From Micromonospora sp. CCTCC AA 2012012 (lineage in GTDB: Bacteria; Actinomycetota; Actinomycetes; Mycobacteriales; Micromonosporaceae): a stretch of 64,000 nucleotides of DNA. The position numbers and the translations under genes were made by a program. The first letter of the stretch is position 1, and each line of letters opens with the position of its first letter. Below are positions 2,008 through 17,898 of the stretch, piece by piece. The DNA lies in NCBI RefSeq assembly GCF_040499845.1, contig NZ_CP159342.1, positions 992,001 through 1,056,000 on the forward strand, in the 5' to 3' direction. The notes under the pieces are model-generated. The model was not told the DNA's origin, searched no databases, and saw only the letters and a program-made list of their open reading frames with translations.

Positions 2008-3225
2008 ATGACATCGCCACGGCTTCTCGCGCGGCGCTCCGACGCGCCCACCACCGACAGCTGGAGTCCGGCAAGCTGGCGCACGCTGCCCATCGAGCAG
2101 CAGCCACCCTGGCCGGACCGAGACGAACTCGAGGCTGTCGCCGACTATCTGCACGGCCTTCCCGCATTGACCCCCGCCGACGAGATCCTGCGACTACGCG
2201 AGGACCTGGCCAAGGCCAGTGCGGGGCAGGCGTTCCTGCTTCAGGCCGGTGACTGCGCCGAGCCGCTCGGGCTGGCGGCCACCGCGTCCGCGCGGATGAA
2301 GCACACGGTCATTGCGTCGCTCACCGCTCGCCTTGAGCGGGAGCTGCACCGGCCGGCGGTCGGCGTGGGACGCCTCGCCGGCCAGTTCGCCAAACCACGC
2401 TCTGAACCCTTCGAGTCCGTCAACGGGCAGCTGCTCCCCGCCTTCCGTGGCCTGATGGTCAACGAGCCGGACGCCAGCTCACAGGCCCGCCTACCGGACC
2501 CGTACCGACTGCTGTCCTGCTACTACACCGCACGGCAGGTCGTCGCCGAGCTGGCGGCGGCCGGCGGCGGAGTGCGGACCAGCCACGAGGTGCTGATCCT
2601 CGAGTACGAGCAGGCACTGACCCGCTACGACGAGGTCACCGACCAGTGGTTCCTGCGCTCGACTCACCTGCCCTGGGTCGGCGACCGCACCCGCCGCCTG
2701 GACGGCGCTCACCTGCACTTTCTGGCGGGCCTGGCCAATCCGGTGGCGGTCAAGGTCGGCCCCACCGCCACGCCCGAGCAGGTGGTGCAAATGTGCGACC
2801 TGCTTGACCCTCACCGTTTGCCGGGTCGGCTCACCCTGATCAGCCGGATGGGTCACCGCCACGTCACTGACCACCTGCCGCCTCTGGTGCGGGCGGTGGC
2901 CGACGCCGGACATGCGGCCGGGTGGGTGTGCGACGCGATGCACGGCAACACCGTGCGGGGGGCCGGCGGGGTGAAGACGCGCCACCTGGACGCCATCGTG
3001 ACCGAGTTGACCACCTTCGTCGAGGTGTTGCACAGCCACGGCAGGGAGCCGGCCGGCCTGCACCTCGAACTGGCCGCCGACGACGTCACCGAGTGCGTCG
3101 GTGGAGTGAGCGTGGCAGACGAGAGTCACCTCAGCCGCGCCTACCGGTCGCTGTGCGACCCCCGGCTGAACAACGAGCAGGTCGAGATGGTCGTCGACGC
3201 GTTCATCGCCGCGATGCACCGCTGA
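2008..3225 (+). CDS. class II 3-deoxy-7-phosphoheptulonate (DAHP) synthase
   Basis: 405 residues. It catalyses the first step of the shikimate pathway, joining phosphoenolpyruvate and erythrose 4-phosphate. Class II marks visible are the QAGDCAEPL segment (metal-site Cys), GRLAGQFAKPRSEP, RPDPYRLL-like RLPDPYRLL and CDAMHGNTV. The length is that of the secondary-metabolism subgroup (PhzC type) and shorter than the regulated plant and mycobacterial enzymes. The start at 2008 has GGGGGAG upstream; a longer reading from 1852 adds unrelated residues. Lying directly before a chorismate-using enzyme, it probably raises chorismate supply for the pathway and escapes the feedback control of the housekeeping enzyme (inference). 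Confidence 0.92.
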   Translation: MTSPRLLARRSDAPTTDSWSPASWRTLPIEQQPPWPDRDELEAVADYLHGLPALTPADEILRLREDLAKASAGQAFLLQAGDCAEPLGLAATASARMKHTVIASLTARLERELHRPAVGVGRLAGQFAKPRSEPFESVNGQLLPAFRGLMVNEPDASSQARLPDPYRLLSCYYTARQVVAELAAAGGGVRTSHEVLILEYEQALTRYDEVTDQWFLRSTHLPWVGDRTRRLDGAHLHFLAGLANPVAVKVGPTATPEQVVQMCDLLDPHRLPGRLTLISRMGHRHVTDHLPPLVRAVADAGHAAGWVCDAMHGNTVRGAGGVKTRHLDAIVTELTTFVEVLHSHGREPAGLHLELAADDVTECVGGVSVADESHLSRAYRSLCDPRLNNEQVEMVVDAFIAAMHR

Positions 3226-3270
3226 GCATCTTTCCCGCAACTCAGTGACCCGAGCGGAGGAGGCATCCCC

Positions 3271-5346
3271 GTGCGCACCCTGCTGGTCGACAACTACGAC
3301 TCCTACACCTACAACCTGTTCCAGCTCATCGCCGTCGTCAACGGCGCCGAACCGACCGTTGTGCGCCACGATGACCCGTCCGTGGAGACGCTGGACCTGC
3401 GCCAGTTCGACAACGTCGTCATCTCCCCCGGCCCGGGACGCCCCGACCGGGAAAAGGACTTCGGGTTCTCCGCGCGGGTCATCGCGGACTCGCCGGTGCC
3501 CGTGCTGGGCGTCTGTCTCGGACACCAGGGCATCGCCTCCGCGCACGGCGCGGCGGTCCTGTCCGCGCCGGCGCCGCGACACGGCCACCTGACAGCGGTC
3601 ACCCACGACGGGACCGGCATCTTCGCCGGCATCCCGCAGAAGTTCACCGCCGTCCGCTACCACTCGCTGTGTGTCGAGAACCTTCCCCCTGAGCTGATCG
3701 CGACGGCCTGGGCCGAGGACGGGGTGATCATGGGACTGCGGCACGTTAGCCGCCCCATGTGGGGCGTGCAGTTCCACCCCGAGTCAATCTGCACCGAATA
3801 CGGGCAGGGCCTGCTGGCGAACTTCCGCGACCTCACCCTGGCGAACCGAAGCCGGGAGACTGTCCACGCGTCCGCCCCATCCACGACCACTGGGCTCCGG
3901 CTGCACGTGCGCTCCCTGGACTGGGAGACCGACGCGGAGGAGGCCTTCGGTCGGCTTTTCCGCGACTCCTCCCACGCGTTCTGGCTCGACAGCGCCCGGG
4001 TGGAGGAGGGCCTGTCCCGGTTCTCCTATCTCGGTGACGCCTCAGGTCCGCTGTCCGAGATCGTCCGCTACGACGTCGGCGCCGGCGAGGTCGAGGTCAC
4101 CGCGGCGGGCGGGCAGTCGTCGCGGGTGCCGGGGACCGTCTTTTCCTATCTGCGGCAGCGGTTGTCCGAGATGCGCGTTGACTCGGACGCGCTGCCCACT
4201 GACTTCACGTGCGGCTACGTCGGCTACTTCGGATACGAGCTGAAGGGCGACCTCGGCTCGCCCGTCCCGCACCGCGCCGACACCCCCGACGCGTACTGGA
4301 TCTTCGCGGACCGTTTCCTCGCCGTCGACCACCGGGACAAGCAGACCCACCTGGTCGCGCTGTCCGACTGCAGTGAGGCCGCTGACCAGGCCGCGCAGGA
4401 GTGGCTGCGTGCCACCGCCGAGCAGCTGACGTCGATTCCCGAGGCGCGACCGACGGTGGCGCAGATCCCACCGTCGGTCGACGCAGCGGCGCTCACCCCG
4501 TCGCTGGTGCGGAATCAGCAGCAGTACCTGGCCGACATCGACTCCTGCAAGCGGGAGCTGGTGGCCGGTGAGAGCTACGAGATCTGCCTGACCAACTCTC
4601 TGCTGCTGCCCCGGCCCAAGGACGGTTTCGCCTTCTACCGGGCGATGCGCCGGTACAACTCGGCCCCCTATTCGGCCTACCTCCGTTTGGGCGACCTCGA
4701 GGTGGCCTGCTCCTCCCCGGAGCGTTTCCTGCGGCTGACTCCGGACGGGATGGTGGAGACGAAGCCGATCAAGGGGACGGCGCCCCGGCATCCCGATCCG
4801 GAGGTCGACGCGGCCCTCCGCGACGAGCTGACCACCAGCGACAAGACCCGCGCGGAGAACCTCATGATCGTCGACCTGCTCCGCAACGATCTCGGTCGTG
4901 TGTGCGAGGTCGGCACCGTCACGGTGCCCAAGTTGATGCAGACCGAGTCGTACGCGAGCGTTCATCAGCTCGTCTCGACCATCCAGGGCCGGCTGCGGGC
5001 GGGCTCCAGCGCCGTCGACTGCGTCGAGGCGTGTTTCCCCGGTGGTTCCATGACCGGAGCGCCGAAGCTGCGCACGCTGCAGATCATCGACGGGCTGGAG
5101 ACCACCGCCCGGGGCATCTACTCCGGCTCGTTGGGCTTCCTCAGCTGCAACGGCACGGCGGACCTGAACATCGTGATCCGCACCGCGGTGCTGGCTGGTC
5201 AGCAGATGCACGTCGGCGCTGGGGGCGCCATCATCCTCGACTCCGACCCTCAGGGCGAGTTCGACGAGATGCTGTTGAAGGCTGCCGCGCCGCTGCGCGC
5301 ACTGCTCAGCGGGGGCTACCAGGAGGACATCGATGTCTATCAGTGA
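3271..5346 (+). CDS. pabAB: fused aminodeoxychorismate synthase (PabA-PabB type)
   Basis: 691 residues. Residues 1-~190 are a glutamine amidotransferase with nucleophile Cys82 in GVCLGHQG and His169/Glu171 in FHPES. Residues ~215-685 are a chorismate-binding (TrpE/PabB) domain. The motif PIKGTAPR contains Lys501, the residue that marks ADC synthases; anthranilate synthases have PIAGT. The order amidotransferase then synthase is that of actinomycete PabAB proteins (chloramphenicol, candicidin) and opposite to PhzE. Predicted reaction: chorismate plus glutamine to 4-amino-4-deoxychorismate. No ADC lyase (PabC) or PapB/PapC enzymes were seen, so the next step is either housekeeping or unusual. 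The end overlaps the next gene by 14 bases. Confidence 0.93.
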   Translation: MRTLLVDNYDSYTYNLFQLIAVVNGAEPTVVRHDDPSVETLDLRQFDNVVISPGPGRPDREKDFGFSARVIADSPVPVLGVCLGHQGIASAHGAAVLSAPAPRHGHLTAVTHDGTGIFAGIPQKFTAVRYHSLCVENLPPELIATAWAEDGVIMGLRHVSRPMWGVQFHPESICTEYGQGLLANFRDLTLANRSRETVHASAPSTTTGLRLHVRSLDWETDAEEAFGRLFRDSSHAFWLDSARVEEGLSRFSYLGDASGPLSEIVRYDVGAGEVEVTAAGGQSSRVPGTVFSYLRQRLSEMRVDSDALPTDFTCGYVGYFGYELKGDLGSPVPHRADTPDAYWIFADRFLAVDHRDKQTHLVALSDCSEAADQAAQEWLRATAEQLTSIPEARPTVAQIPPSVDAAALTPSLVRNQQQYLADIDSCKRELVAGESYEICLTNSLLLPRPKDGFAFYRAMRRYNSAPYSAYLRLGDLEVACSSPERFLRLTPDGMVETKPIKGTAPRHPDPEVDAALRDELTTSDKTRAENLMIVDLLRNDLGRVCEVGTVTVPKLMQTESYASVHQLVSTIQGRLRAGSSAVDCVEACFPGGSMTGAPKLRTLQIIDGLETTARGIYSGSLGFLSCNGTADLNIVIRTAVLAGQQMHVGAGGAIILDSDPQGEFDEMLLKAAAPLRALLSGGYQEDIDVYQ

Positions 5347-7267
5347 CCCTCTGTCTGTGTGCATCATCGGCATGGGCCCGCGCGGACTGTGTGTCCTCGA
5401 GCGTCTGGTCACCAACGCCGCCGCCACCCCGGACCGTCCTGTGCGCATCGACGTCGTGGACCCGTACCCGCCGGGGGCCGGTCGGGTCTGGCGCGCCGAC
5501 CAGTCCGACCGGCTGCTGATGAACACCGTCGCATCCCAGGTGACCGTCTACACCGACGCCACGGTCGACATGGCCGGCCGGTTGGCGGAGGGCCCCAGCC
5601 TCTACGAGTGGGCCCGCTTCCAGGTGCTGATGGGCGACCTCAAGCAGTTCCCGTCCGATGTGGCCGATGAGTTGCGCGGTGTGGGGCCCGACACCTACTC
5701 CACCCGCCGGCTGTTCGGTCATTACCTCACCTGGGTCTACCGGCGGGTGGTCGCCACGGCGTCGGCGAACGTCACGGTGCGGGCGCACGACACGGTCGCG
5801 GTGGCCGTGTGGGACGAGCCCCACGGCGGGCAGTGCGTCCAGTTGCAGACCGGTGAACGCCTGCCCGGCCTGGACGCGGTGGTGTTGGCGCAGGGCCACT
5901 ACCCGGTCACTCCCACCGTAGAGGAGCAGACGCTGGCGGCCTTCGCCGTCGAACACGGGCTGACGTACATCCTGCCGGCCAACCCGGCGGATGTGGACCT
6001 GACGATGGTGCGCCCCGGCGAGCCGACTGTGCTGCGTGGGCTCGGGTTGTGTTTCTTCGACTACATGGCTCTGCTCACCGAGGGACGCGCCGGTCGCTAC
6101 GTCCGCGGCGATGACGGCGTCCTGACCTACCTGCCGTCCGGTCTGGAGCCGCGCCTGCTGGCCGGGTCCCGTCGGGGGATCCCCTACCGGGCGCGGGGCC
6201 GCAACGAGAAGGGCGCGCACGGGCGTCACGAACCCCGCATCCTCACCGTCGAGCTGGTCAATCAGCTCCGTGGGGCGTCGGGCGCGGCACCGATGGACTT
6301 CATGACCGACCTGTGGCCGCTGATCGCCAAGGAGGTGGAGACCGCCTTCTACGTCGCGACGCTGCGCCGCTCCGACTGCGCCTGCAACGGTCAGCGGTTC
6401 GAGGCGGAGTACCTGGAGGTGCCGTGGGCCGACGACCAGGAGGAGGAGATCCTGCGCCGGCACGGGATCACCGACCGGTGGGACTGGAACTCGGTCTTGA
6501 ACCCGGGGCACGGCGACACCTTCACCGAGACAGCGGCGTTGCAGGAGTGGATGCTGCGCTATCTGCAGACGGACCTGGCCACAGCCGAGGAAGGCAATGT
6601 CAGCGGACCGGTGAAGGCGGCCATGGATGTGCTGCGTGACCTCCGTAACGAGGTGCGCCTGGCGGTCGACCATGGGGGGCTGCGCGGTGACTCGCACCGT
6701 CGGCACCTCGACAGCTGGTACACGCCCATGAACGCTTTCCTCAGCATCGGTCCGCCGGCCCAGCGGGTGGAGCAGATGGCGGCGCTCATGCGCGCCGGTG
6801 TGCTGGAGGTCATCGGCGCGGGCATGCAAGTGTCGCCCCATCCGGAGCGGGCCGCGTTCCTCGTGGAGTCCACGCAGACCCCCGGCGTCCAGCATGTGGT
6901 GACCGCGATGATCGAGGCCAGGTTGCAGGAGGTCGACCTGCGACGCACCGCAGACCCGCTGCTCGGGTGGATGCTGGCACACCGGTCCTGCACCTACCAT
7001 GTGGTGTCGGATCCGGGGTCGCAGCCCCACGTGACCGGTGGAGTGGCGGTCACCGGCCGGCCGTTTCACCCGCTGTCCGCGACGGGAGATCGGCACAGCC
7101 GACGGTTCGTGTTCGGCGTGCCGACGGAGGGCGCCCACTGGGCGACGGCGGCGGGTGCGCGTCCCGGCGTCAACTCGGTGATGTTGGGTGACGCGGACGC
7201 GATCAGCTTGTCCGTGCTTGCCCTGTCCCGGGCGGCGGCGGAGACGACGGAGACGGTGACGACATGA
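5333..7267 (+). CDS. CreE-like FAD-dependent aspartate N-oxygenase (nitrosuccinate-forming)
   Basis: 644 residues. The N-terminus has a Rossmann FAD site (IIGMGPRG, residues 9-16), followed by VVDPYPPGAGRVWR and LLMNTVASQVTVY, features of the FAD/NAD(P)-binding family that contains CreE (cremeomycin) and FzmM (fosfazinomycin). Those enzymes oxidise the amino group of L-aspartate to give nitrosuccinate. The aspartate assignment rests on the family and on the adjoining CreD-like lyase; the general family is broader. The ATG at 5333 lies inside the preceding gene and the end overlaps the lyase start as ATGA, so the two are translationally coupled. A cytoplasmic flavoenzyme needing NAD(P)H and oxygen is expected. 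Confidence 0.82.
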   Translation: MSISDPLSVCIIGMGPRGLCVLERLVTNAAATPDRPVRIDVVDPYPPGAGRVWRADQSDRLLMNTVASQVTVYTDATVDMAGRLAEGPSLYEWARFQVLMGDLKQFPSDVADELRGVGPDTYSTRRLFGHYLTWVYRRVVATASANVTVRAHDTVAVAVWDEPHGGQCVQLQTGERLPGLDAVVLAQGHYPVTPTVEEQTLAAFAVEHGLTYILPANPADVDLTMVRPGEPTVLRGLGLCFFDYMALLTEGRAGRYVRGDDGVLTYLPSGLEPRLLAGSRRGIPYRARGRNEKGAHGRHEPRILTVELVNQLRGASGAAPMDFMTDLWPLIAKEVETAFYVATLRRSDCACNGQRFEAEYLEVPWADDQEEEILRRHGITDRWDWNSVLNPGHGDTFTETAALQEWMLRYLQTDLATAEEGNVSGPVKAAMDVLRDLRNEVRLAVDHGGLRGDSHRRHLDSWYTPMNAFLSIGPPAQRVEQMAALMRAGVLEVIGAGMQVSPHPERAAFLVESTQTPGVQHVVTAMIEARLQEVDLRRTADPLLGWMLAHRSCTYHVVSDPGSQPHVTGGVAVTGRPFHPLSATGDRHSRRFVFGVPTEGAHWATAAGARPGVNSVMLGDADAISLSVLALSRAAAETTETVTT

Positions 7268-8688
7268 TTGGCGGGCACGGTTTCGACCGGGGACTGCTCA
7301 GCCCGAGCAGCGCGGGTCGGGCGATCGAGCACGCCGTCGGCGACGACGCCTTCCTGCAGGCGATGCTCGATGCGGAGGCCGGTCTCGTGCGGGCTCAGGC
7401 CCGGCTGGGGGTGGTGCCGCAGCAGCACGCGGACACCATCACCGCCGTCGCGGACGCCCGCCGACTCGACCTCGACGCCATCGCCCGCCGCGCGACCGAG
7501 ACGGCGAATCCGGTGGTCGCTCTGGTGGCCGCGCTCACCGCGGCGGTCGCCGCGGTGGAGCCGGCCGCCGCCGAGTACGTCCACCGGGGCTCCACCAGCC
7601 AGGACATTCTCGACACGGCCCTGACGATGGTGGCCCAGCGGGCGCTGCACATCATCGACGCGGACCTGGCGGCCACCGCCGATGCGCTCGCCCGGCTCGC
7701 CGACCGGCACCGGGGCACGGCGATGGCGGGGCGAACGTTGACCCAGCATGCCGTGCCCACGACGTTCGGGCTCAAGGCCGCGACATGGCTGTCCGGGGTG
7801 TTGGACGCCCGGCAGAGCATCGCCGTGCTGCTGCGGGACGGGTTGCCGGTGCAGCTGGGTGGCGCCGCCGGCACCCTGGGCGCCTACCTGGAATTCGCGC
7901 GGCTGGCCGGCGACACCGGCGACACGTACGCGGCGAAGCTGATGCACGCCTTTGCCGATGAGCTGTCCCTGGCGGAGCCGCTAGTCCCGTGGCACACCGT
8001 CCGTACGCCGTTGCACGCGGTCGTGAGTGCGCTGAGCCTCACGACCGGTGTCCTGGGCGCTATGGCGGCCGACGTGCAGGTCATGACCAGAACCGAGATC
8101 GGGGAGCTGGCGGAGCCGACCGGGCCGGGGCGTGGGGCTTCCTCCGCGATGCCGCACAAGCGCAATCCGGTGCTGGCCACCCGGATCCGAGCGGCGGCCG
8201 CGCAGGTGCCGATGCTCGCCGCGACAGTCGGGTTGTGTCTCGTCGCGGAGGACGAACGCCCGGGCGGTGCGTGGCACGCCGAATGGCAGCCCTTTCGGGA
8301 GGCGTTACGGTTGACGGGGGGAGCGGCCGACGCGGCGTCGGAGCTGTCCGACGGCCTGACGGTGTTCCCTGACCGGATGCGGCGCAACCTGCACCTGGCC
8401 GGGGATTTCATGACCTCGGAGCGGCTCGCTGTCCGACTGACCCCGCTGCTGGGCAAGATCGAGGCGAAGGACCTGCTATCGACGTTGACCACCCGGGCGC
8501 ACGAGAGCGGGCAGCCGCTGCATGCGCTGGTGGCGGCCGATGACCGGGTCGCGGCGGTCCTCGACCCGTCGGAGGTGACCGCGGCGCTGGATCCGGCCGA
8601 CTATGTGGGTGCCGCCGGTCTGCTGGTGGATCGGGTGCTGCACCGCCACGAAATGTCCGCCGCGTCGCCGCCGGGCCCACGCCAGTGA
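7264..8688 (+). CDS. CreD-like nitrosuccinate lyase (fumarase/aspartase superfamily)
   Basis: 474 residues of the fumarase/aspartase superfamily, PcaB-like branch: conserved HRGSTSQDILDTA near residue 105, TLTQHAVPTTFG near 160, and the flexible catalytic loop GASSAMPHKRNPV with Ser293-Ser294. In cremeomycin, fosfazinomycin and alanosine clusters this branch (CreD, FzmL) eliminates nitrous acid from nitrosuccinate and leaves fumarate. Direct coupling to a CreE-like gene by an ATGA overlap supports that role over 3-carboxymuconate cycloisomerase or adenylosuccinate lyase activity. The downstream gene begins in a GTGA overlap. Confidence 0.85.
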   Translation: MIGGHGFDRGLLSPSSAGRAIEHAVGDDAFLQAMLDAEAGLVRAQARLGVVPQQHADTITAVADARRLDLDAIARRATETANPVVALVAALTAAVAAVEPAAAEYVHRGSTSQDILDTALTMVAQRALHIIDADLAATADALARLADRHRGTAMAGRTLTQHAVPTTFGLKAATWLSGVLDARQSIAVLLRDGLPVQLGGAAGTLGAYLEFARLAGDTGDTYAAKLMHAFADELSLAEPLVPWHTVRTPLHAVVSALSLTTGVLGAMAADVQVMTRTEIGELAEPTGPGRGASSAMPHKRNPVLATRIRAAAAQVPMLAATVGLCLVAEDERPGGAWHAEWQPFREALRLTGGAADAASELSDGLTVFPDRMRRNLHLAGDFMTSERLAVRLTPLLGKIEAKDLLSTLTTRAHESGQPLHALVAADDRVAAVLDPSEVTAALDPADYVGAAGLLVDRVLHRHEMSAASPPGPRQ

Positions 8689-9731
8689 GCGAGCCGGACC
8701 CGCTGACACGTCCCCTGGTGGGCGCGCCGATGGCGGGCGGTGTGAGCACTCCCGCGCTCGTCGCCGCGGTCAGCGACGCCGGGGGACTGGGGTTTCTGGC
8801 CGCCGGGTATCAGCACCCGGCCGACCTGGCCGCCGACATCACCCGGGTGCGTCGCGCTACCGACGCCCCATTCGGCGTCAACGTGTTCGTGCCGGAGTCC
8901 CGGCCAGTCGACCTGGACGCCGTGGGAGTGTTCCGGCGCGCGCTGACGGCGGAGGCCGCCCGTTGGCGGGTGACATTGCCCGAGCCGGTGGAACGGGACT
9001 CGGACTTCTTCGACGAGAAGGTCGACATCGTCGTCGCCGCTCGGGTGCCGGTGGTCAGCTTCACCTTCGGCTGCCCACCCCGCGCGGTCGTCGACCGGTT
9101 GCACTCCGTGGGGACGCGGGTTGTCGTGACCGTCACCGACGCGCAGGAGGCGATCGAGGCCGCCGCGGTTGGTGCCGACGCCCTGTGCGTGCAGAGCGCC
9201 CACGCCGGCGGGCACCGCGCCACCTTCACTTCCGCCGAACGGTGCGACACGCGGACGGGTACGCCGGAGCTGGTGGCGTCGGTCCGGCAGGCCGTCGCGG
9301 TGCCCTTGATCGCGGCCGGCGGCATCGTCCGGCCCGAGGAGGCCGCCGCGGTGGTCGAGGCCGGCGCGTCGGCGGCGCAGATCGGCACCGCCCTGCTGAC
9401 CACGCCGGAAGCCGGCACCCACGCCGCGCACCGGGCCGCCCTGACCGCGTCCGACCGTGGCACCACCGTCACCCGGGCGTTCTCTGGCCGTCTGGCCCGA
9501 GGACTGCGCAACCGCTTCATCGACTCGTTCGGCGCGCTCGCGCCGGCGGCGTATCCGCAGGTGCATCACCTGACGAAGCCGCTGCGCGCGGCGGCGGCGG
9601 CGCGCGGCGACGCGGAGGGCATGGCGCTGTGGGCGGGGACGGGTCACCACCTCGTCCGGGCGGAGCCCGCGGCGGCGGTCGTCGCCCGCCTGGCCGCCGT
9701 CGTGGCCAGCCGCCGGCCGGAATCACGTTGA
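8685..9731 (+). CDS. nitronate monooxygenase / 2-nitropropane dioxygenase family
   Basis: 348 residues, a TIM-barrel FMN enzyme of the nitronate monooxygenase family: PLVGAPMAGGVSTPALVAAVSDAGGLGFL at the N-terminus, SFTFGCPP, QSAHAGGHRATF and LIAAGGIV (FMN phosphate site). Start is GTG 8685 in a GTGA overlap with the lyase gene. The family oxidises alkyl nitronates to a carbonyl and nitrite. Beside a nitrosuccinate-forming enzyme it could clear escaped nitro/nitronate intermediates, release extra nitrite, or act on a nitro intermediate of the product. Which of these applies cannot be read from sequence. Confidence 0.85.
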   Translation: MSEPDPLTRPLVGAPMAGGVSTPALVAAVSDAGGLGFLAAGYQHPADLAADITRVRRATDAPFGVNVFVPESRPVDLDAVGVFRRALTAEAARWRVTLPEPVERDSDFFDEKVDIVVAARVPVVSFTFGCPPRAVVDRLHSVGTRVVVTVTDAQEAIEAAAVGADALCVQSAHAGGHRATFTSAERCDTRTGTPELVASVRQAVAVPLIAAGGIVRPEEAAAVVEAGASAAQIGTALLTTPEAGTHAAHRAALTASDRGTTVTRAFSGRLARGLRNRFIDSFGALAPAAYPQVHHLTKPLRAAAAARGDAEGMALWAGTGHHLVRAEPAAAVVARLAAVVASRRPESR

Positions 9732-9756
9732 TCAATCGAGACACGAGGAGGATCTG

Positions 9757-9981
9757 ATGCCCCACATCAACATCAAGTTCTTTCCGGTAACCCTGCAGCA
9801 GGACACCGAACAGCAGCTGATCACCGACCTGACCGAAGCGGTCACCACCGCGTTCGGGTGCAGCGCGGATGTCGTGTCCGTCGCCTTCGAGCCGATCGAG
9901 GAGCAGCGCTGGCAGGCGCAGGTCTACCAGCCGGAAATCATCGAGCGCCGGCACCTGCTGCGAAAGCTGCCGAACTACTGA
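9757..9981 (+). CDS. 4-oxalocrotonate tautomerase-family small enzyme
   Basis: 74 residues beginning MPHINIKFFP. After removal of Met the N-terminal Pro is the general base of this superfamily. The sequence most resembles the PptA/YdcE branch (MPHI start, ~75 residues). The ATG has AGGAGG upstream (9747-9752). It sits alone between the nitronate monooxygenase and the cysteine-synthase-like gene. It may tautomerise an enol/keto or amino-cyclohexadiene intermediate derived from ADC, or add to or remove a group from an unsaturated acid; substrate unknown. Confidence 0.85.
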   Translation: MPHINIKFFPVTLQQDTEQQLITDLTEAVTTAFGCSADVVSVAFEPIEEQRWQAQVYQPEIIERRHLLRKLPNY

Positions 9982-10036
9982 GTCGTCGCGTCGACCGACC
10001 GGCGGGCCCGGTCGCTTTCAAGGGGGGGACACCGTC

Positions 10037-10999
10037 ATGGCGCAGCCAACCTACGCGCTCGCACCGAAACCATTGCCGAGCATCGCCGACGGGATTGACG
10101 ACCTCGTCGGCAACACGCCGCTGTTGCGGTTGCCGGTCCCGCACCGCGCGCCCGGCGCCGATCTGCTGGCGAAGCTCGAGTACGCGAACCCGGCCGCCAG
10201 CGTGAAGGACCGTGCCGCGCTGTACATGCTGCGCGCTGCGGAGGCCGACGGCCGGTTGCGGCCCGGTGGTGTGGTCGTGGAGGCGACCTCCGGTAACACG
10301 GGTATCGCCTTGGCCGCGCTGTGCGCGCCGCGCGGGTACCGGTGCATTATCGTGCTGCCAGACAACGCCACGCCGGAACGGATCGGGCTGTTGCGTCGCT
10401 TCGGCGCGGACGTGGTGCTGACTCCACGGGAGGCCCGCTATCAGGGCGCCGTGGACAAGGCCGAGGAAATCTGCGCGGTGACGCCCGGCGCCTGGTTCGT
10501 CCGGCAGCACGACAACGAGGACAACCCGCGGGCGCATCTGGAGACGACCGGGCCGGAAATATGGACCGACACGGGTGGTCAGGTCGACATCCTGGTCTGC
10601 GGCGTCGGCACGGGCGGCACGTTGTGCGGCACCGCGACCTACCTGAAGCAGCTCAATCCGGGGCTGCGCGCAGTGGCGGTCGAACCGTCGGGGTCGCCTC
10701 TGCTGTCGGGGGGGCAGCCGGGCACTCACGCCATCCCGGGCTTCAACGGCGGGTTCGTCGCCCCCACCACCGACCTCAGCGTCATCGACGAGGTGATCAC
10801 CGTGGCTGACAGTGAGGCGGCGGCGACGAGCCAGTGGCTGGCGCGTCGGGTGGGGGTTCTCGCCGGGTTGTCCTCAGGCGCGGCGACGCACGCGGCGTTG
10901 CGGGTCGCCCGCCGCCGTAGCAGCGCCAACCGGCGGTTGGTTGTCATCCTCCCCGACACCGGGGAGCGCTACCTCAGTATGTGGACGGAGCGTCCGTGA
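10037..10999 (+). CDS. cysteine synthase-like PLP enzyme (beta-replacement)
   Basis: 320 residues, fold type II PLP enzyme close to CysK: NTPLLRL, the PLP lysine Lys57 in ASVKDRAA, the Ser/Asn loop EATSGNTGIA, and the phosphate-binding VCGVGTGGTLCG. Such homologues in natural-product clusters replace the beta-substituent of O-acetyl- or O-phosphoserine with a non-sulfide nucleophile (for example SbnA- and DdaA-type 2,3-diaminopropionate routes). Here the nucleophile could be an amine, hydrazine or nitrogen oxide species; that is speculation. A strong GGGGGGG-type ribosome site precedes the ATG. It is coupled to the next ATP-grasp gene by a GTGA overlap. Confidence 0.86.
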   Translation: MAQPTYALAPKPLPSIADGIDDLVGNTPLLRLPVPHRAPGADLLAKLEYANPAASVKDRAALYMLRAAEADGRLRPGGVVVEATSGNTGIALAALCAPRGYRCIIVLPDNATPERIGLLRRFGADVVLTPREARYQGAVDKAEEICAVTPGAWFVRQHDNEDNPRAHLETTGPEIWTDTGGQVDILVCGVGTGGTLCGTATYLKQLNPGLRAVAVEPSGSPLLSGGQPGTHAIPGFNGGFVAPTTDLSVIDEVITVADSEAAATSQWLARRVGVLAGLSSGAATHAALRVARRRSSANRRLVVILPDTGERYLSMWTERP

Positions 11000-12318
11000 G
11001 ACGGTCGCGAAGCGGGGAAGGTGAGCCGTTGAGGACACTGCTTCTGGTCGGCGGCGTCGACGACACGGTCGTCGCGGCGAAGGAGCTCGGCCTGCGAGTG
11101 GTGCTGCTGCAGCACCCCACCAAGATCACCGGCCGGCAGCGGGAGCTGGCCGACGTCACCGAGGTGCTGGACTACACCGACTGGGCGGCGACGGCGCCGG
11201 TGGTGACCAGCCTGCACGAGCGGTGGCGTATCGAGCGGGTCGTGTCGCTGACCGAGCCGGGCCTGGACATCGCCGCGCAGATCAGCGATCTACTCGGCTT
11301 GGGTGGTACGACGTTCCAGGTCTCCCGCCTTTTCCGGGACAAGCTGGCGATGCGCCGCCACCTGGTGCGCCGCGACGCAGAGGCGGTAGCGGCGACCCCG
11401 TTGCACGACTTCGACGACCTGCCCGCGTTCGGCGCGCGTCACGGCTACCCCTTCGTAGTGAAGCCCGCGGCGGCCACGGCCAGCATCGGGGTGTTCCGCG
11501 TCGCCGACCCGTCCGACCATGACTTCGTCTGGGAGCAGGTGCGCCGGCTGCGGGGCACCCGTACCGACCGCGTGTCGACACTGCTGATGATCGACGACTT
11601 CTTCATGGAGGAGTACGTCCACGGGCAGGAGTTCAGCGTCGAGTCGTTCAGCTTCGGTGGACGACACGTGATGGTGACGATCACCGAGAAGATGACCGTC
11701 CCGGGCCACTTCGCGGAGCTCGGTCACGCCGTGCCGGCGCGGCTGACAGAGGATGCGTGGGACCGGGTCGCCGAGTGCGTCACCACCTTCCTCGACCACA
11801 TGGGATTCACCGACGGTCCCTGCCACACCGAGGTCCGCCTGTCGGGTACGAGAGCGCGCATCATCGAAAGTCACCACCGCTACGGCGGTGACGCGATCCC
11901 GGAGCTCGTGCGGGCCGTGTACGGCATTGATCTGGACACCCTGGCCGTCGGCTGGCCCTTCGGACTGGTGGACCCGCTGCCGGACGATCCGTGTCCGCGG
12001 GGTGGCGCCTGCGTGCGAGCCATCGTCGCCGCGCCCGGTCGGGTGGTGTCCATCGAGGGTGTCGAGGAGGCGCGCCGCCAGCCGGACGTCCTGGCGGTGC
12101 GGATCAGCGTCCACGCGGGTGACGAGGTGCGTCCGCTGCGGGACAACTGGGACCGGCTCGGTCTGGTCGCCGCCACGGCGGCCAGTCCGACCGCCGCAGC
12201 CGTGCGGGCCGCTCAGGTCATCGACGACTTCATTCGGATCCGGGTGCAGGACGACAGCGGGCGTGTCCATCTCGCGCGGGTCGCGGAGGTTCACCGAGTG
12301 CCGTCGGGGGTGGGCTGA
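10996..12318 (+). CDS. ATP-grasp ligase 1
   Basis: 440 residues if started at GTG 10996, which overlaps the preceding stop as GTGA with GGAG upstream. TTG 11029, just before RTLLLVGG, also has a well placed GGGGAAGG and would give 429 residues. The fold is carboxylate-amine ligase ATP-grasp: pre-ATP domain with LTEPGLDIAAQISDLLG, then FRDKLAMRRHL, YPFVVKPAAATASIGV (ATP lysine) and the metal-site region HTEVRL...IIESHHRYGG. These enzymes activate a carboxylate as acyl phosphate and form an amide or ester. With the neighbouring second ligase it could build a short peptide-like backbone. Confidence 0.85.
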   Translation: MRRSRSGEGEPLRTLLLVGGVDDTVVAAKELGLRVVLLQHPTKITGRQRELADVTEVLDYTDWAATAPVVTSLHERWRIERVVSLTEPGLDIAAQISDLLGLGGTTFQVSRLFRDKLAMRRHLVRRDAEAVAATPLHDFDDLPAFGARHGYPFVVKPAAATASIGVFRVADPSDHDFVWEQVRRLRGTRTDRVSTLLMIDDFFMEEYVHGQEFSVESFSFGGRHVMVTITEKMTVPGHFAELGHAVPARLTEDAWDRVAECVTTFLDHMGFTDGPCHTEVRLSGTRARIIESHHRYGGDAIPELVRAVYGIDLDTLAVGWPFGLVDPLPDDPCPRGGACVRAIVAAPGRVVSIEGVEEARRQPDVLAVRISVHAGDEVRPLRDNWDRLGLVAATAASPTAAAVRAAQVIDDFIRIRVQDDSGRVHLARVAEVHRVPSGVG

Positions 12319-12319
12319 C

Positions 12320-13582
12320 ATGAGTGTTCTCATCCTGCACCGCAACCCCCTGGAGCCTTTCCCGTATCGAGCCTGGCTCGCCGACTATGACGGTCCGATC
12401 GTGATGCTCGCCGCCCGCGACAAGATCGAATCCTTCGGTGAGCAGGTCCCCGACGACGCCGCCGGGCTGTCGCATCTCGGGGTGCTCGACCACTACGACC
12501 GGGACGTGGCGGCCCGCGCCACGGAACTCGCCGAGCAGTACCACCCTCGCCACGTCGTCGCGCTTCACGAGGCGGACCTGGAGCTCGCCGCGGACCTTCG
12601 CGAGCGGTGGAGGCTACCGGGCCCCCGGGCCGCTGACATCCGCCCGTTCCGGGACAAGCTGCTCATGAAGGAACGGGCGCAGGCCGCGGGCATCGAGGTG
12701 GCCCCCCACAGCTTGGCGACCACGGCGCAGCAGGTGGAGGCTTTCGCTGCCGAGCACGGCTACCCCGTCGTGCTCAAACAGCGCGCCGGCTACAACTCCA
12801 TCGGCCTGCGTATCAGCCGCTCATCCGAGGCGCTGCGTGCTCATGTGGACGCCCTCTTCGCCGGCGGTGCCCGCGACGACATCATCGTGGAGCAGTTCGT
12901 CGCCGGCCGGATGTGCCACGTCGACGGGTTCGTCAGGGGCGGCCGGACCGTGCTGGCCTGGCCCTCCCAGTACCAGTACGACCTGGCGTCCTTCGGCAGC
13001 GACCCGGGCCCGCGCATCGATCTGACCCTCGACCCGCACGACCCGCTCACCACACGGCTGCTCGACCTGGTCGACGAAGTCCTCGCCGCCGTCACCCGCC
13101 GGCCCGGTCATCTCACCGACCACGCTTTCCACGCTGAGGTCTTCCACACCCCTGACGACCGGCTCGTGCTGTGCGAGATCGCTTGCCGCAGCGGCGGGGC
13201 GAAGATCCGTGAGGTCTTCGAGGTCATGTTCGGTGTCAACCTGGCCGAGCTTGAGATCCGCACCCAGCTCGGTCTGCCCGTCCCTGCACTCGACCACCTG
13301 CCGGCCGGAGTCCGCCCGCAGCCCGGCAGCATGTCCGGACAGATGCTCATGATGAAACGGCCCGGTCTCGTCCGCGCAGTGCCGGCACGGCCGACGGAGC
13401 CGTGGGTGCGCCGGTTCTGGTGCTGGGCCCGCCCCGGTCAGGTGATCCCGCCCGCCGCAGGATCCGCGGACTTCCTCACCGCCGCCATCGCCGCCGCACC
13501 GACCCGCGCCGAGTGCGAGGCGCGGCTGCGGTCGCTCGGTGCGCGTATCGCCGATCAGTTCCACATCGCGGAGGCATCGTGA
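12320..13582 (+). CDS. ATP-grasp ligase 2
   Basis: 420 residues starting at ATG 12320, one base after the previous stop. Visible ATP-grasp parts: LHEADLELAADLRERW, FRDKLLMKERAQAAGI, YPVVLKQRAGYNSIGL (ATP lysine), HVDGFVRGG, and HAEVF...LCEIACRSGG (metal ligands). It is similar in plan to, but clearly diverged from, the ligase before it, so the pair is more likely to make two different bonds than to be a recent duplication. Ends in a GTGA overlap with the transporter gene. Confidence 0.86.
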   Translation: MSVLILHRNPLEPFPYRAWLADYDGPIVMLAARDKIESFGEQVPDDAAGLSHLGVLDHYDRDVAARATELAEQYHPRHVVALHEADLELAADLRERWRLPGPRAADIRPFRDKLLMKERAQAAGIEVAPHSLATTAQQVEAFAAEHGYPVVLKQRAGYNSIGLRISRSSEALRAHVDALFAGGARDDIIVEQFVAGRMCHVDGFVRGGRTVLAWPSQYQYDLASFGSDPGPRIDLTLDPHDPLTTRLLDLVDEVLAAVTRRPGHLTDHAFHAEVFHTPDDRLVLCEIACRSGGAKIREVFEVMFGVNLAELEIRTQLGLPVPALDHLPAGVRPQPGSMSGQMLMMKRPGLVRAVPARPTEPWVRRFWCWARPGQVIPPAAGSADFLTAAIAAAPTRAECEARLRSLGARIADQFHIAEAS

Positions 13583-14898
13583 CGTCCAAGGGGATCCAGG
13601 CCCGGTACATGGCCGGGATGGTGATCGACGCCACCGGCAGCGGCATGTATCTGCCCCTGTCGCTGATCTACTTCCACCACACCACCGGCCTACCCGTGGG
13701 GAGGGTCGGTGCGATTGTCAGCGCCGCGGCGATCGTGGGGCTGCTGGCCAACCCCCTCACCGGGGTGCTCGTCGACCGGTTCGGCGCTCGCGCAGTGGTC
13801 GTCGCCGGTTACCTCCTCCGCGCCGCCGCGTTCGCCTGCTACCCCTTCGTCCACTCCGCGGTGCCGCTGTTCCTGGCCGTGATGGTGGTGGCCTTCGGGG
13901 ACGTGTCGTTCTCCCCATCCGTGCACTCGCTCGTTGCTGACATAGCCCGCGGCACCACCCGCGACAAGCTAATCGCCGCGCAGCGCAGCCTCCGCAACGC
14001 CGGACTCGGCGCGGGTGGTCTGCTCGCTGGTGCCGCCCTGGCCGTCTCCGACGCCCGCGCGTTCACGGTGATCATTGCGACCAGCGCGGTCGCCTTCACG
14101 GTGGCGGCGGCACTGATCCGCTCTATCCCCGTCCGCCGTCGGCAGCCGGACGCCGTCGCCGACACGGCGCCCGGCGACGGGGTGGGCTACCGGCTGGTCG
14201 TCCGGAACCGGCCGTTCCTCGCTCTGGCGCTGCTGAACATGTTCACCGCGTTCGGATACATGGTGCTGTCAGTCAGCCTGCCCATCTACGTCACCATGAG
14301 CCTGGGCCAGCCCCCCTCACTGGTGGGCGCCGTCTACGCGGTGAACACCATCGGCATCGCGGTGGCGCAGATCCCGGTCACCCGCGCGCTGGCCCACGTC
14401 CGCCGATCCAGAGCTGTCGCCACCGGCGCGAGCATCTTCGGCGTGTCGTTTCTGTCATTTGCGGTACTGGGCATGACCGCCGGCGGCGCTGTCCTCATGG
14501 CCGGCATCTTCGCGGCGACAGCCATTTTCACCGTTGGAGAACTTTTGCACGGCGCGACCATGTCCGCCCTGGTCGTCAACGCCGCCCCTGAACAGACCCG
14601 GGGCCGGCACCTCGCGATCTACCAGCTGTCCTGGGCGGTGCCGAGCGCCCTGGCGCCCGCGGTCCTCACCGCGTTGCTGGCTTTCTCACCCACCGGCATG
14701 TGGTTCGTGCTCGCCGCAGGGGTGGCCGTCACCGCCGTCGGGGTGCTGCGCCTGGAACCACACCTACCGGCGGAGGCGGTACATCCGCAACCGCCTGACG
14801 CGCCGCCCCCGCCGGCCGCTCTGGAGCCGGACACCGTCCGGCCCGAGCTGCGTGAGGCGACCGCGGCGCAGCTCGTGAGAACCAGGAAGGAACACTGA
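13579..14898 (+). CDS. MFS transporter, probable product exporter
   Basis: 439 residues with about twelve hydrophobic segments and the MFS loop 2-3 motif as GVLVDRFGARAVV. Start GTG 13579 overlaps the preceding stop. The Pro-rich C-terminal tail (~residues 395-439, PPDAPPPPAALEP) is cytoplasmic. In the middle of a biosynthetic operon it most likely exports the product or gives self-resistance. The next gene starts on the last base of its stop codon. Confidence 0.88.
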   Translation: MTSKGIQARYMAGMVIDATGSGMYLPLSLIYFHHTTGLPVGRVGAIVSAAAIVGLLANPLTGVLVDRFGARAVVVAGYLLRAAAFACYPFVHSAVPLFLAVMVVAFGDVSFSPSVHSLVADIARGTTRDKLIAAQRSLRNAGLGAGGLLAGAALAVSDARAFTVIIATSAVAFTVAAALIRSIPVRRRQPDAVADTAPGDGVGYRLVVRNRPFLALALLNMFTAFGYMVLSVSLPIYVTMSLGQPPSLVGAVYAVNTIGIAVAQIPVTRALAHVRRSRAVATGASIFGVSFLSFAVLGMTAGGAVLMAGIFAATAIFTVGELLHGATMSALVVNAAPEQTRGRHLAIYQLSWAVPSALAPAVLTALLAFSPTGMWFVLAAGVAVTAVGVLRLEPHLPAEAVHPQPPDAPPPPAALEPDTVRPELREATAAQLVRTRKEH

Positions 14899-15569
14899 TG
14901 GCAGTAGCAAGCTGGGTGGTACTCACCGGCGACGACCCGCAGCACGCGCTGCCGGCGGCCGCCGGTCAGTGCGGCTGGGTCAGCCAGGTCGCGCCGCTGA
15001 TCACCGAGTTCACCCGGCCCGGTGATCTCGTGTTCGATCCGTTCGCCGGGTGGGGCACCACGCTCGTCGCGGCGTCGGTCACCGGCCGGCGGGGGATCGG
15101 CCTGGAGATCTCCCCGGACCGGGTCACGCAGGCGGCACGCCGCCTGCGGGACTATCCCGGGCAGGTCATGATCTGCGGTGACGCCCGCCGCCCCCCGGTG
15201 CCTGACGGCAGTGTCGACTTCTGCATCACCGACCTGCCGTACTTCGGCACTGCCCTTGACATCGACTCCCCGGTCGACGGTCAGCTGTACGCGGTACGTG
15301 ACTACTCCGCCTACCTCACGGCCCTCGACCACACCTTCCGCGCGCTCGCCCGGGTCCTGAAACGACACGCCTACGCTGTCATCGCGGTACAAAACCGGCG
15401 TGTTGACGACAAGTTCGTCCCATTGGCATGGGATGTTGGCCGGGTGCTCAGCGGACACTTCACCCTCGGCGACGAACGCATCCACCTGTATCCGCGTCCG
15501 GTCAGCGAGGGCACACCGCTCGTCAACAACCGCGCCCACGAGTACCTTCTCGTCGCTCAGAAGCGGTAG
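14898..15569 (+). CDS. DNA-methylase-like (N4/N6 type) methyltransferase
   Basis: 223 residues. SAM site DPFAGWGTT begins at Asp47 and the amino-methyltransferase catalytic motif is DLPY at residues 112-115, the (D/N/S)-P-P-(Y/F) site used to methylate exocyclic amino groups. The order is motif I then IV with a short target region, so no clear DNA-recognition domain is visible. There is no restriction gene nearby, and the gene is fused into the biosynthetic operon by a 1-base overlap. It may methylate an amine of the small molecule, or protect DNA against a genotoxic product; both are inference. Confidence 0.75.
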   Translation: MAVASWVVLTGDDPQHALPAAAGQCGWVSQVAPLITEFTRPGDLVFDPFAGWGTTLVAASVTGRRGIGLEISPDRVTQAARRLRDYPGQVMICGDARRPPVPDGSVDFCITDLPYFGTALDIDSPVDGQLYAVRDYSAYLTALDHTFRALARVLKRHAYAVIAVQNRRVDDKFVPLAWDVGRVLSGHFTLGDERIHLYPRPVSEGTPLVNNRAHEYLLVAQKR

Positions 15570-15619
15570 CGGGCGCAGCGGACAGACCCTCGCGGCACCC
15601 CTGCTGGGAAAGGTGAAGA

Positions 15620-16672
15620 ATGGTCGTACCGGTCATCGCGGCGCTGGGACGCGCCCAACCCCCTTCGGCAGATCAGGGCGAGTTGTGGGAGGGCTTCTTC
15701 GCGGAGCGCTTCGCCGGACCGCAGCGGACGTTCGCACAGCGCATCTTCGCCAACTCGGGGGTGACTCGCCGCTGCGCCGCCGTCAGCCCCCTCATCGAGG
15801 ACGTCTCCGACTGGCCCACCTCCCGCCGCATGCAGCGGTACATGGTGGAGGCGGTGCCGCTGGGCAAGGACGCCGTGTCCCGGGCACTCGCCTCCGCCGG
15901 TCTGCGGGCCGACGAGATCGGCATGTTCATCGTGTGCTCCTGCACCGGCTACGCCACCCCCGGACTGGACCTCATCCTCGCCCGCGACCTCGGAATGGCC
16001 CCTGACACGCAGCGCCTGTTTATCGGCCACATGGGCTGCTACGCGGCCCTGCCCGGGCTGCGCGCGGCCGCGGACTACGTCCGCGTCCATCAACGCCCCG
16101 CGGTGCTGCTCTGCGCTGAGATCACAAGTCTGCACATCCAGCCGTTCGGCGCCCGGATGACCGCCGAGCAGATCGTGTCCCATGCCCTGTTCTCCGACGC
16201 CGCCGTGGCCGTCGTCTGCACACCCGGCGGCACGGGATACGCGGTGCAGTCGGTGGAGTCACTGACCGACGCCTCCACTGCGGACTACATGACGTGGGAC
16301 CTCACCGACACCGGATTCCGCATGTCTCTGTCGGTCAAGGTCCCTGATGTGCTCGCCGAGAACGTGCGACACCTAGTCATGCCGACGCTGGCCGGACACG
16401 GCATCACCGACGTGCGGCACGTCGACGGATGGGCCGTCCACCCCGGTGGGCCGCGGATCCTCACCGTGGTGGAGCAACAGCTCAGCCTGCCGCCAAACGC
16501 GCTCACACCGTCACGTCGCACGCTCGCCGATGACGGTAACTGCTCGTCGGCGACTGTCCTGCTGGTCCTGGATCGGCTCATGCGCTCCCCGCAGCCCATG
16601 CGGCAGGTGGCGATGCTGGCCTTCGGGCCCGGTCTCACGCTGTACTCGGCGAACCTGGCCTCGACCAGCTGA
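15620..16672 (+). CDS. type III polyketide synthase (chalcone/stilbene synthase family)
   Basis: 350 residues, the usual length for the family. The catalytic triad is complete: Cys140 in GHMGCYAALPG, His274 in WAVHPGGPRI and Asn307 in DDGNCSSATV. The C-terminal AFGPGLT motif is also present. The enzyme extends a starter acyl-CoA with malonyl-CoA and cyclises it to a pyrone, resorcinol or similar ring. In this operon it would give a polyketide or phenolic part; the starter is unknown and no CoA ligase is visible. It is the last closely spaced gene of the operon and is followed by a hairpin. Confidence 0.92.
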   Translation: MVVPVIAALGRAQPPSADQGELWEGFFAERFAGPQRTFAQRIFANSGVTRRCAAVSPLIEDVSDWPTSRRMQRYMVEAVPLGKDAVSRALASAGLRADEIGMFIVCSCTGYATPGLDLILARDLGMAPDTQRLFIGHMGCYAALPGLRAAADYVRVHQRPAVLLCAEITSLHIQPFGARMTAEQIVSHALFSDAAVAVVCTPGGTGYAVQSVESLTDASTADYMTWDLTDTGFRMSLSVKVPDVLAENVRHLVMPTLAGHGITDVRHVDGWAVHPGGPRILTVVEQQLSLPPNALTPSRRTLADDGNCSSATVLLVLDRLMRSPQPMRQVAMLAFGPGLTLYSANLASTS

Positions 16673-16674
16673 CA

Positions 16675-16699
16675 GTGCGGGCCGGTTTCCGGCCTGCAC
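16675..16699 (+). terminator. hairpin after the type III PKS gene
   Basis: Arms 16675-16685 and 16689-16699 pair at 10 of 11 positions around a TTT loop, beginning 3 bases after the stop. There is no U-run, as is usual in high-GC actinomycetes. It probably ends the main biosynthetic transcript. Confidence 0.6.
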
Positions 16700-17076
16700 C
16701 CTGCGCTACCGGCGTTGTAGCCGGGGGGTCGCATGCCGTACGAGGCGTAGCTCAACTGCTGTCTCGTCATAGTCCGCATCACCGCCGGATCACGATGACG
16801 CCTTGAAATCCTACAGTTTCGATAGGAAAGTCGATGGTATGCCGAGCGAGCCACTGCTCACCTCCTCCCGGGACGTCGACCTGAGGCGGGTCGCCTCGCA
16901 GCGCTGTTCCAGGTTGCGCCGACCATCCCCGCCGCGCATCACGCCGCCGGCTGTCTTCCGCATGCCTCCCCAGGACGGCGCGACCTCACCTTGAGAGATG
17001 CAATCCGGCCCTGCAGCTGGACCGCTCGTGCTTGACGACCTCGCCATCCTCGCCATCCGGACTCAGGAGGGCCCGG
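16700..17076. other. intergenic stretch with no recognisable gene
   Basis: 377 bases between the PKS terminator and the DUF1684 relic. Short frames exist, for example one from 16839 beginning MPSEPLLTSSRDVDLRR and a 31-codon frame from 16998 with LDDLAILAIRTQEGP, but none has a convincing ribosome site or known family. Confidence 0.4.
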
Positions 17077-17307
17077 ATGACCGCCGGTGTTGACTCCTTC
17101 GCCCAACAGTGGCGGGACTGGCACCGCCAACACGAGGAGACCTGGGCGGACCCGCACGGTTTCCTGGCCGTGACCGGGCTGCACCGGCTGGGCCCCCCGC
17201 GCTACAGCGTTCCCCGGCGCCTCTCCCGCCTGGCGCAGCGAGGCCGACGACGTGGTTGTCACGCTGGCATCGGAGGAAGAGATCCGGCTGCTGCCCTTTC
17301 GACCGTA
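17077..17307 (+). pseudogene. frameshifted, truncated DUF1684 gene
   Basis: ATG 17077 with CAGGAGG upstream opens FAQQWRDWHRQHEETW and PHGFLAVTGLHRL, the characteristic start of DUF1684 proteins. The expected continuation, FPGASPAWRSEADDVVVTL, is present but in another frame, entered near 17195-17210, and stops at 17305-17307. DUF1684 proteins are normally about 200-270 residues, so about two thirds is missing. It is a relic at the decaying end of the cluster. Confidence 0.7.
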
Positions 17308-17341
17308 GCTTTCTGCTCAGCTGCTCTTGGGGAGGAATGTC

Positions 17342-17872: not shown

Positions 17873-17877
17873 TCCTT

Positions 17878-17898
17878 GCCGCCGTGCTCCTCGGCGGC
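17878..17898 (+). terminator. hairpin after the flavin reductase gene
   Basis: GCCGCCG and CGGCGGC pair perfectly around a 7-base loop, 5 bases after the stop at 17872. No U-run. Confidence 0.45.

Follow-up and report, generated by a model that had tools for sequence, protein, structure and literature searches.

The ava and cma clusters, the diazotisation-dependent clusters of avenalumic acid and p-coumaric acid, feature CreE and CreD together with an ATP-dependent ligase of the AvaA6 subfamily that acts on an aromatic amine, and in the excerpts of PMC10777205 these clusters start from 3-amino-4-hydroxybenzoate, provided by AvaH/AvaI, and use a KS-CLF. The crx cluster of the crexazones likewise joins nitrous-acid genes to an aminobenzoate pathway, again that of 3-amino-4-hydroxybenzoate and not of 4-amino-4-deoxychorismate (ADC) and 4-aminobenzoate (PABA), according to excerpts of PMC11429834; this comparison covers the pathway as described there. 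Minimycin clusters feature an A-Ox-T-TE-Tau synthetase, a C-glycosynthase of the YeiN-like group, the HAD/DUF4243 protein MinC, a uracil phosphoribosyltransferase and a transporter (excerpts of PMC8724604). The locus compared here was found in a stretch of 64,000 nucleotides from Micromonospora sp. CCTCC AA 2012012 (contig NZ_CP159342.1, positions 992,001 to 1,056,000), which as a whole is called the window. In window 2008-15569, eleven intact genes follow one another on the same strand, spaced by -19 to 55 bp, from a 3-deoxy-D-arabino-heptulosonate 7-phosphate (DAHP) synthase to a methyltransferase, and among them are an ADC synthase and a CreE/CreD-like nitrous-acid pair. Sequence comparison identifies this operon as the right-hand end of a conserved set of ~53 kb (G000:C1:954494-1007569, where G000 is the own genome and a window coordinate is the G000:C1 coordinate minus 992000), which lies mostly upstream of the window. 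It is proposed, with a probability of roughly one half, that within this cluster aspartate-derived nitrous acid diazotises a PABA-derived arylamine.

Six genomes carry the set: G000, G378 (name inferred as M. matsumotoense), G399, G228, G916 (inferred as Actinoplanes teichomyceticus) and G1012, where G and L numbers are labels of the compared genomes and loci. In place of the 3-amino-4-hydroxybenzoate and KS-CLF genes of ava and cma (excerpts of PMC10777205), the locus has ADC synthase and an acid reductase. The GriH/GriI-like proteins of L158 (3-amino-4-hydroxybenzoate synthase type) gave no tblastn match at E 1e-3 in the six carrier regions (80.9 kb for the own region), with L157 and L159 as positive control, and a KS-like query from L192 gave none in the same regions (one query; CLF was not searched separately). 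Grixazone-type clusters contain acid reductase pairs that in three genomes (G840, G746 and G531) are 54-61% identical to the pair here; there the acid comes from another pathway, whereas here ADC synthesis is present, and the genes called around the three pairs include no CreE or ADC synthase match. With minimycin/indigoidine clusters (excerpts of PMC8724604) the locus shares the A-Ox-T-TE synthetase, an Indigoidine_A-family protein, the uracil phosphoribosyltransferase, a transporter and a tautomerase, which is a separate gene here; unlike minimycin clusters, the G000 region is without a HAD phosphatase like that of G1012, and the module is joined to PABA/nitrous-acid genes.

In the open-licence PMC literature (MIBiG was not searched), no cluster was found that joins ADC synthase and nitrous-acid genes with either a diazotase or an indigoidine-type module, and within that literature the cluster is a variant not previously described of nitrous-acid/diazotisation clusters. 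If the proposal is correct, enzymatic diazotisation would extend from the 3-amino-4-hydroxybenzoate-derived amines of the ava/cma ligases to a simple aniline. The cluster would then provide one candidate diazotase and one candidate acid reductase, would point to a metabolite family, probably reactive, that is common to Micromonospora and Actinoplanes, and would place a PABA/nitrous-acid pathway beside, perhaps within, a C-nucleoside-type pathway.

Aminobenzoate, nitrous-acid and candidate diazotase genes

Families were assigned by Pfam, NCBIfam and PDB sequence searches, percentages are sequence identities, and the comparison samples are 160 genus genomes (own included), 354 family, 397 order and 394 class genomes. 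Genes of the relatives were called by a simple script based on third-position GC content (GC3), so that missed genes or wrong starts are possible. The window features named below up to base 16672 lie on the plus strand. The operon opens with a class II DAHP synthase (2008-3225, start placed by inspection; Pfam 446 bits, NCBIfam 434 bits, below the cut-off of 614.7). The fused PabAB-type ADC synthase (3271-5346; Pfam, NCBIfam) has as its closest PDB chain 8hx6, a 4-amino-4-deoxychorismate synthase (E 6e-206). Its Lys501 lies within a KPIKGT motif that aligns with the same motif of 8hx6, and a lysine in this motif is what we take to be a marker of ADC synthases.

The CreE-like L-aspartate N-hydroxylase, predicted to be nitrosuccinate-forming (5333-7267), has 8cp2/8cp5 as its sole distinct PDB match (E 5e-186), and this protein is an L-aspartate N-hydroxylase according to excerpts of PMC10404684. 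Residues were mapped by spacing and offset without structure superposition, and the active-site alignment included seven of the twelve intended CreE proteins (five loci were left out). Arg13, Trp51 and Asn62 of PMC10404684 (excerpts) correspond to R17, W53 and N64, and the octet RDLRNEVR at 435-442 matches Arg409/Arg412/Asn413/Arg416. Of the 312 proteins called from the six carrier regions, 4 contain the octet pattern, which is found in CreE of G000, G378, G399 and G228. The CreD-like nitrosuccinate lyase (7264-8688) matches CreD 5xny best in the PDB (E 2e-134; 452 bits vs 263 bits for the best cycloisomerase). It contains SSAMPHKRNP, which fits the SSxMPxKRNP loop of CreD-type nitrosuccinate lyases (excerpts of PMC13411527); the aligned cycloisomerase 1re5 has the same pattern, so the loop is not exclusive to them. 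CreE occurs in 18 of the 160 genus genomes at E 1e-80, four at 82% or above (own included) and fourteen at 36-52%.

The acid reductase is encoded upstream of the window. The 357-aa EhpF-like adenylase (G000:C1:988913) has EhpF as its only PDB relative at E 0.01 (E 9e-64) and adjoins an aldehyde-dehydrogenase-like EhpG-like partner (G000:C1:989986), which is the arrangement of a GriC/GriD-type pair. GriC and GriD of grixazone clusters reportedly form a carboxylic acid reductase. At E 1e-30, five of the 160 genus genomes have an EhpG-like protein (the own genome and three others at 79% or above, a fifth at 36%); matches also occur in 10 of 354 family genomes at E 1e-60, where the best beyond the genus are G916 (69%) and G1012 (55%), and in 45 of 394 class genomes at E 1e-50. 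The closest outside the family are those of G840, G746 and G531 (54-55%), with an EhpF-like neighbour at 58-61%. These pairs lie near a DHQS-II-type protein, a DeoC-type aldolase, a tyrosinase and MelC1 (Pfam on the G746 proteins), a gene make-up that we take to be that of grixazone clusters; the names GriC/GriD for these Streptomyces-type homologues presumably apply, going by gene neighbourhood. In G675 the pair has a DAHP synthase (44%) and an ADC synthase (62%) as neighbours, and CreE gave no match at that locus. Because of these homologue neighbourhoods, grixazone-like and in G675, the pair here would convert 4-aminobenzoate to 4-aminobenzaldehyde. The G675 locus (L160, G675:C11:324001-344000) also holds two AMP-ligases and two FAD proteins and resembles a nitrous-acid-free cluster of the 4-aminobenzaldehyde type. 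A separate locus, L177 (G910:C122:20001-40000), shows the same parts in another combination: EhpF-like 46%, EhpG-like 41%, a weakly ADC synthase-like gene (29%), a relative of ATP-grasp ligase 1 (50%) and an MFS-like protein (39%).

An AMP-forming ligase of 590 aa (G000:C1:968007-969779, minus strand) lies 22-24 kb left of window base 1. Of 87 NCBIfam families, the AvaA6 diazotase is the best named one (E 9e-113), and three genomes (G400, G406 and G417) have 35% relatives of the ligase at most 5 kb from CreE-like genes. It matches in 96 of 160 genus genomes at E 1e-60, and a close copy (at least 92%) is found in exactly the same four of the 160 that have the close CreE and the acid reductase (at least 79%).

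The original prediction described the operon from the window alone. Every gene that it named proved to be an intact frame of the stated family (Pfam, NCBIfam, PDB), and this includes an ADC synthase with Lys501, borne out by the motif shared with 8hx6, and a CreE/CreD-like nitrous-acid pair, with 8cp2 and 5xny as best PDB matches and the aspartate-site residues of CreE retained (CreD is below its NCBIfam cut-off). That nitrous-acid and ADC genes belong together agrees with their place in one conserved set and with the four genomes that share close CreE and acid reductase genes, and an ADC-derived arylamine as the target of diazotisation is plausible, being backed by the acid reductase pair and the AvaA6-like ligase in the set. 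The compact operon as a whole unit was not sustained, since the conserved set runs from G000:C1:954494, ~37.5 kb left of window base 1, to the methyltransferase.

Extent of the set and its synthetase module

Gene order in the block that runs from the azoreductase-like gene to the methyltransferase is shared by G000, G378, G399 and G228. Most of the set is found again in G916, where the block keeps this order minus the nitronate monooxygenase and its placing relative to the left part differs; part of the set, rearranged, is found in G1012, where the block is present only up to CreE. Positions 8001-60000 of the G1012 contig gave no match to CreD, nitronate monooxygenase, CysK, the ATP-grasp ligases, the major facilitator superfamily (MFS) exporter or the methyltransferase.

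The left end consists of an Indigoidine_A-family protein (G000:C1:954494-955498, minus strand; 361 bits), presumably akin to YeiN, an A-Ox-T-TE synthetase (G000:C1:955495-959460, minus strand; domains by Pfam on the G916 homologue), an EamA transporter (G000:C1:959485) and a uracil phosphoribosyltransferase (G000:C1:960399; 237 bits). An insert of ~430 residues lies between the adenylation and carrier domains of the synthetase. A model of this insert in the G378 homologue, built from five homologous sequences (pLDDT 69.7), has twelve PDB matches at E <=0.001, namely ThcOx, BmdC, nitroreductases and McbC (E 7.5e-8 to 1e-3), with low TM by query (0.26-0.37); this fits the oxidase domain that indigoidine/minimycin synthetases contain. 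The operon's stand-alone tautomerase (window 9757-9981; family search) is possibly the partner of this synthetase and would supply the Tau function; it adjoins the synthetase in G1012, G192 and G358. A G1012 protein that looks HAD-like by eye gave no match when the G000 region was searched with it by tblastn at E 1e-3 (DUF4243 was not searched). Also in G1012, locus L182 (G1012:C17, about 48.1-52.3 kb) holds four ergothioneine-biosynthesis-like genes, seen by eye, directly before the synthetase.

The right-hand part of the operon features a CysK-like pyridoxal phosphate enzyme (10037-10999; PDB 2q3b, E 2.5e-92; nearest own-genome paralogues 44%), followed by two ATP-grasp ligases of the L-amino-acid-ligase type, ligase 1 (10981-12318; Pfam, NCBIfam; PDB 3vot, E 6e-20) and ligase 2 (12320-13582; Pfam), and an MFS exporter (13579-14898; Pfam). 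ATP-grasp ligase 2 matches in 38 of 397 order genomes at E 1e-20 (own included); two genus genomes have it at 82-84%, then come G192 and G358 at 58-59% and G330 at 45%. The loci of these two order genomes, L092 (G192:C13) and L093 (G358:C18), share CysK (66-72%), the ATP-grasps (54-57%), the MFS exporter (58-60%), the tautomerase (43-49%) and a homologous synthetase, and they differ from the set here in having a serine acetyltransferase and a protein with weak similarity to SbnB (31 bits). No CreE, ADC synthase or DAHP synthase is found at either locus.

Proposed route and alternatives

From the gene families and their joint conservation we infer a route, with its substrates, the order of its steps, the enzyme of the fourth step, the fifth step and the product. 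4-Aminobenzoate would come from DAHP synthase, ADC synthase and a candidate ADC lyase, namely a class IV aminotransferase (G000:C1:969821-970651, minus strand; matched in G378 and G916). The GriC/GriD-type pair would yield 4-aminobenzaldehyde, and a short-chain dehydrogenase/reductase (SDR; G000:C1:988019) may reduce the aldehyde to the alcohol. In the third step CreE would turn L-aspartate into nitrosuccinate and CreD would release nitrous acid, and in the fourth the AvaA6-like ligase would use ATP and nitrite to diazotise the arylamine. Fifth, the diazonium might be coupled, or be reduced to an arylhydrazine, perhaps by the azoreductase-like flavoprotein (G000:C1:987337), and the CysK/ATP-grasp module might attach the outcome to amino-acid units; a dihydroxypyridine unit supplied by the minimycin/indigoidine-type module is possibly included. 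An arylamine N-acetyltransferase within the set (G000:C1:976359; family tested on the G378 homologue) counts in favour of this route. A PABA-derived arenediazonium with aspartate nitrogen, coupled to an electron-rich dihydroxypyridine or its C-riboside from the indigoidine/minimycin-type module, or reduced to an arylhydrazine and ligated, would give an aryl-azo or arylhydrazine C-nucleoside conjugate. This is a speculative and rather improbable product, and its pathway would combine kinds of chemistry that the literature searched does not show together. The idea of agaritine, which we take to be 4-hydroxymethylphenylhydrazine joined to glutamate, also fits the gene list; it was set aside with no direct evidence, and a literature search found nothing on agaritine genes.

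Several observations weigh against the proposed route. For the class IV aminotransferase, the NCBIfam score as a D-amino-acid transaminase slightly exceeds that as an ADC lyase, and each is far below its cut-off. CreD reaches 627.6 bits for the NCBIfam nitrosuccinate lyase, 22 bits below the curated cut-off of 650, and in G1012 it is missing from the stretch 8001-60000 searched. The aspartate site of CreE is changed in two carriers, with Arg409 and Asn413 replaced by Asp in G916, and Asn413 by Arg and Asn62 by Asp in G1012, so nitrite formation is less certain in these two. The 590-aa ligase scores 377.6 bits against an AvaA6 cut-off of 975, 92 further genus genomes have paralogues of it at 39% or below, and, as a control, two 37% paralogues give the same best family at 364 and 445 bits (one of them has, judged by eye, a ketosynthase-like gene and two carrier-like genes as neighbours). 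Going by its best family, this control and the relatives near CreE, the ligase is likely a member of the AvaA6 subfamily, and its diazotase activity is putative.

The strongest alternative concerns the unity of the set and is compatible with the first four steps. It holds that two or three neighbouring clusters with separate products are present: a minimycin/indigoidine-type C-nucleoside locus on the left, a PABA/nitrous-acid locus, and on the right a CysK/ATP-grasp cassette. Such a division is suggested by G192 and G358, where the cassette and tautomerase accompany an A-Ox-T-TE-type synthetase without the PABA/CreE genes, and by G1012, where the PABA/CreE part and the synthetase occur and the genes for CysK, the ATP-grasps, the MFS exporter and the methyltransferase are absent from 8001-60000. 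On the other hand, the PABA/CreE part has the synthetase nearby in all four genomes in which co-location could be judged (G000, G378, G916 and G1012; the contigs of G399 and G228 end earlier), albeit with changed block order in G916 and G1012, and in five of six carriers the nitrous-acid operon contains the tautomerase, the likely partner of the synthetase. This alternative thus has an appreciable chance of being correct, short of even.

A second alternative keeps the nitrous-acid pathway and changes its outcome: diazotisation would remove the amino group, as with AvaA6/AvaA7, or nitrite would be used otherwise, and the final product would be without an N-N bond. There is precedent for both, as AvaA7 swaps the diazo group for hydride (excerpts of PMC10777205) and the creD/creE homologues of crx are essential though its products are without a diazo group (excerpts of PMC11429834). 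No AvaA7-type enzyme was identified in the set, in which the SDR matches ordinary SDR families (the AvaA7 sequence itself was not compared), and an outcome of this kind is considered somewhat unlikely.

The type III polyketide synthase and remaining genes

The type III polyketide synthase (PKS) at window 15620-16672 is full length, starts 50 bp behind the methyltransferase on the same strand, and was counted in the original prediction as an operon member. Because of this spacing, and of window 13000-18500 yielding 0 terminator-like sites vs 1.3 expected in shuffles, co-transcription with the operon is possible in G000. Its GC3 of 0.872 lies inside the range of the operon (0.839-0.903, ten of eleven genes measured), so its composition does not mark it as foreign. 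It is a second, diverged copy besides the genus-type copy in the own genome (69%); in 11 other genus genomes that were checked, the genus-type copy (68-71%) lies on other contigs or places, and G228 and G416 have a further distant copy (30% and 35%, respectively). The G416 copy leans towards membership of the PKS, as this 35% PKS-like gene lies 2.9 kb from a 52% CreE-like gene (G416:C539:27568-33309); that locus is possibly a nitrous-acid/type III PKS cluster in its own right. However, the PKS is absent from the cluster region of all five other carriers, and 73 loci of PKS relatives from named contigs (flanks of up to 10 kb, some shorter) contain no CreE, ADC synthase, CysK or ATP-grasp match at E 1e-8, with a 29% CreD-like match at one (L058). 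It is therefore very improbable that the PKS extends or condenses a PABA-derived or diazotised unit; by its distribution among the genomes it is probably a neighbour, and its membership of the pathway is not supported.

The window begins within the C-terminal end of an AMP-binding-like protein (window 1-164; whole gene G000:C1:991340-992164, 274 aa), whose frame crosses the window edge. It is specific to the cluster, has 13 relatives at E 1e-6 or better, and its predicted structure is poor (pLDDT 51.6). Next comes a MocR/PdxR-type regulator with GntR and aminotransferase folds (287-1825; Pfam, NCBIfam), which reaches 386.9 bits for the PdxR family, above the NCBIfam cut-off, is kept in all six carriers, and ends 182 bp before the DAHP synthase start. 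Within the operon, the nitronate monooxygenase (8685-9731; 2-nitropropane dioxygenase family; PDB 3bw2, E 2e-87; Pfam) is missing from G916 and G1012, and the methyltransferase of the N4/N6 DNA-methylase family (14898-15569) is 72-89% identical in four relatives.

Further genes of the set, from left to right, are a PRAI-like gene (G000:C1:961074), a Liv-type ABC set (G000:C1:962020-966743) that is matched in G1012 and not closely in the other carriers, a haloalkane-dehalogenase-like hydrolase (G000:C1:967075), a sulfotransferase (G000:C1:970975), a substrate-binding protein (G000:C1:972180), CysD (G000:C1:973464), a CysN-like GTPase (G000:C1:974441) and an Rv2466c-like gene (G000:C1:975633). 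These are followed by a methyladenine glycosylase (G000:C1:977282), which was assigned to its family through the G378 homologue and has matches solely in G378 and G399, and then by a second Liv-type set (G000:C1:977804-982347) and a CPA2-type antiporter (G000:C1:985459).

Beyond the methyltransferase, and convergent to it, G378, G399 and G228 have a 528-aa ligase, LIG. It was first suspected as the diazotase and was set aside, as its nearest PDB entries are 6sq8/6h1b, it has no counterpart in the window or in L004, and its matches in the own genome do not exceed 34% identity. In L090 (G378:C51) and L126 (G399:C18) this side holds the ligase, a flavin monooxygenase (FMO), an aromatic ammonia-lyase, a second FMO, an FMN dehydrogenase, a P450 and a second antiporter; LIG, FMO and ammonia-lyase, the three tested, have no match in the window or L004. 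In the window itself, 17078-17872 holds, by eye, a broken DUF1684-type gene and then an intact flavin-reductase gene (17327-17872).

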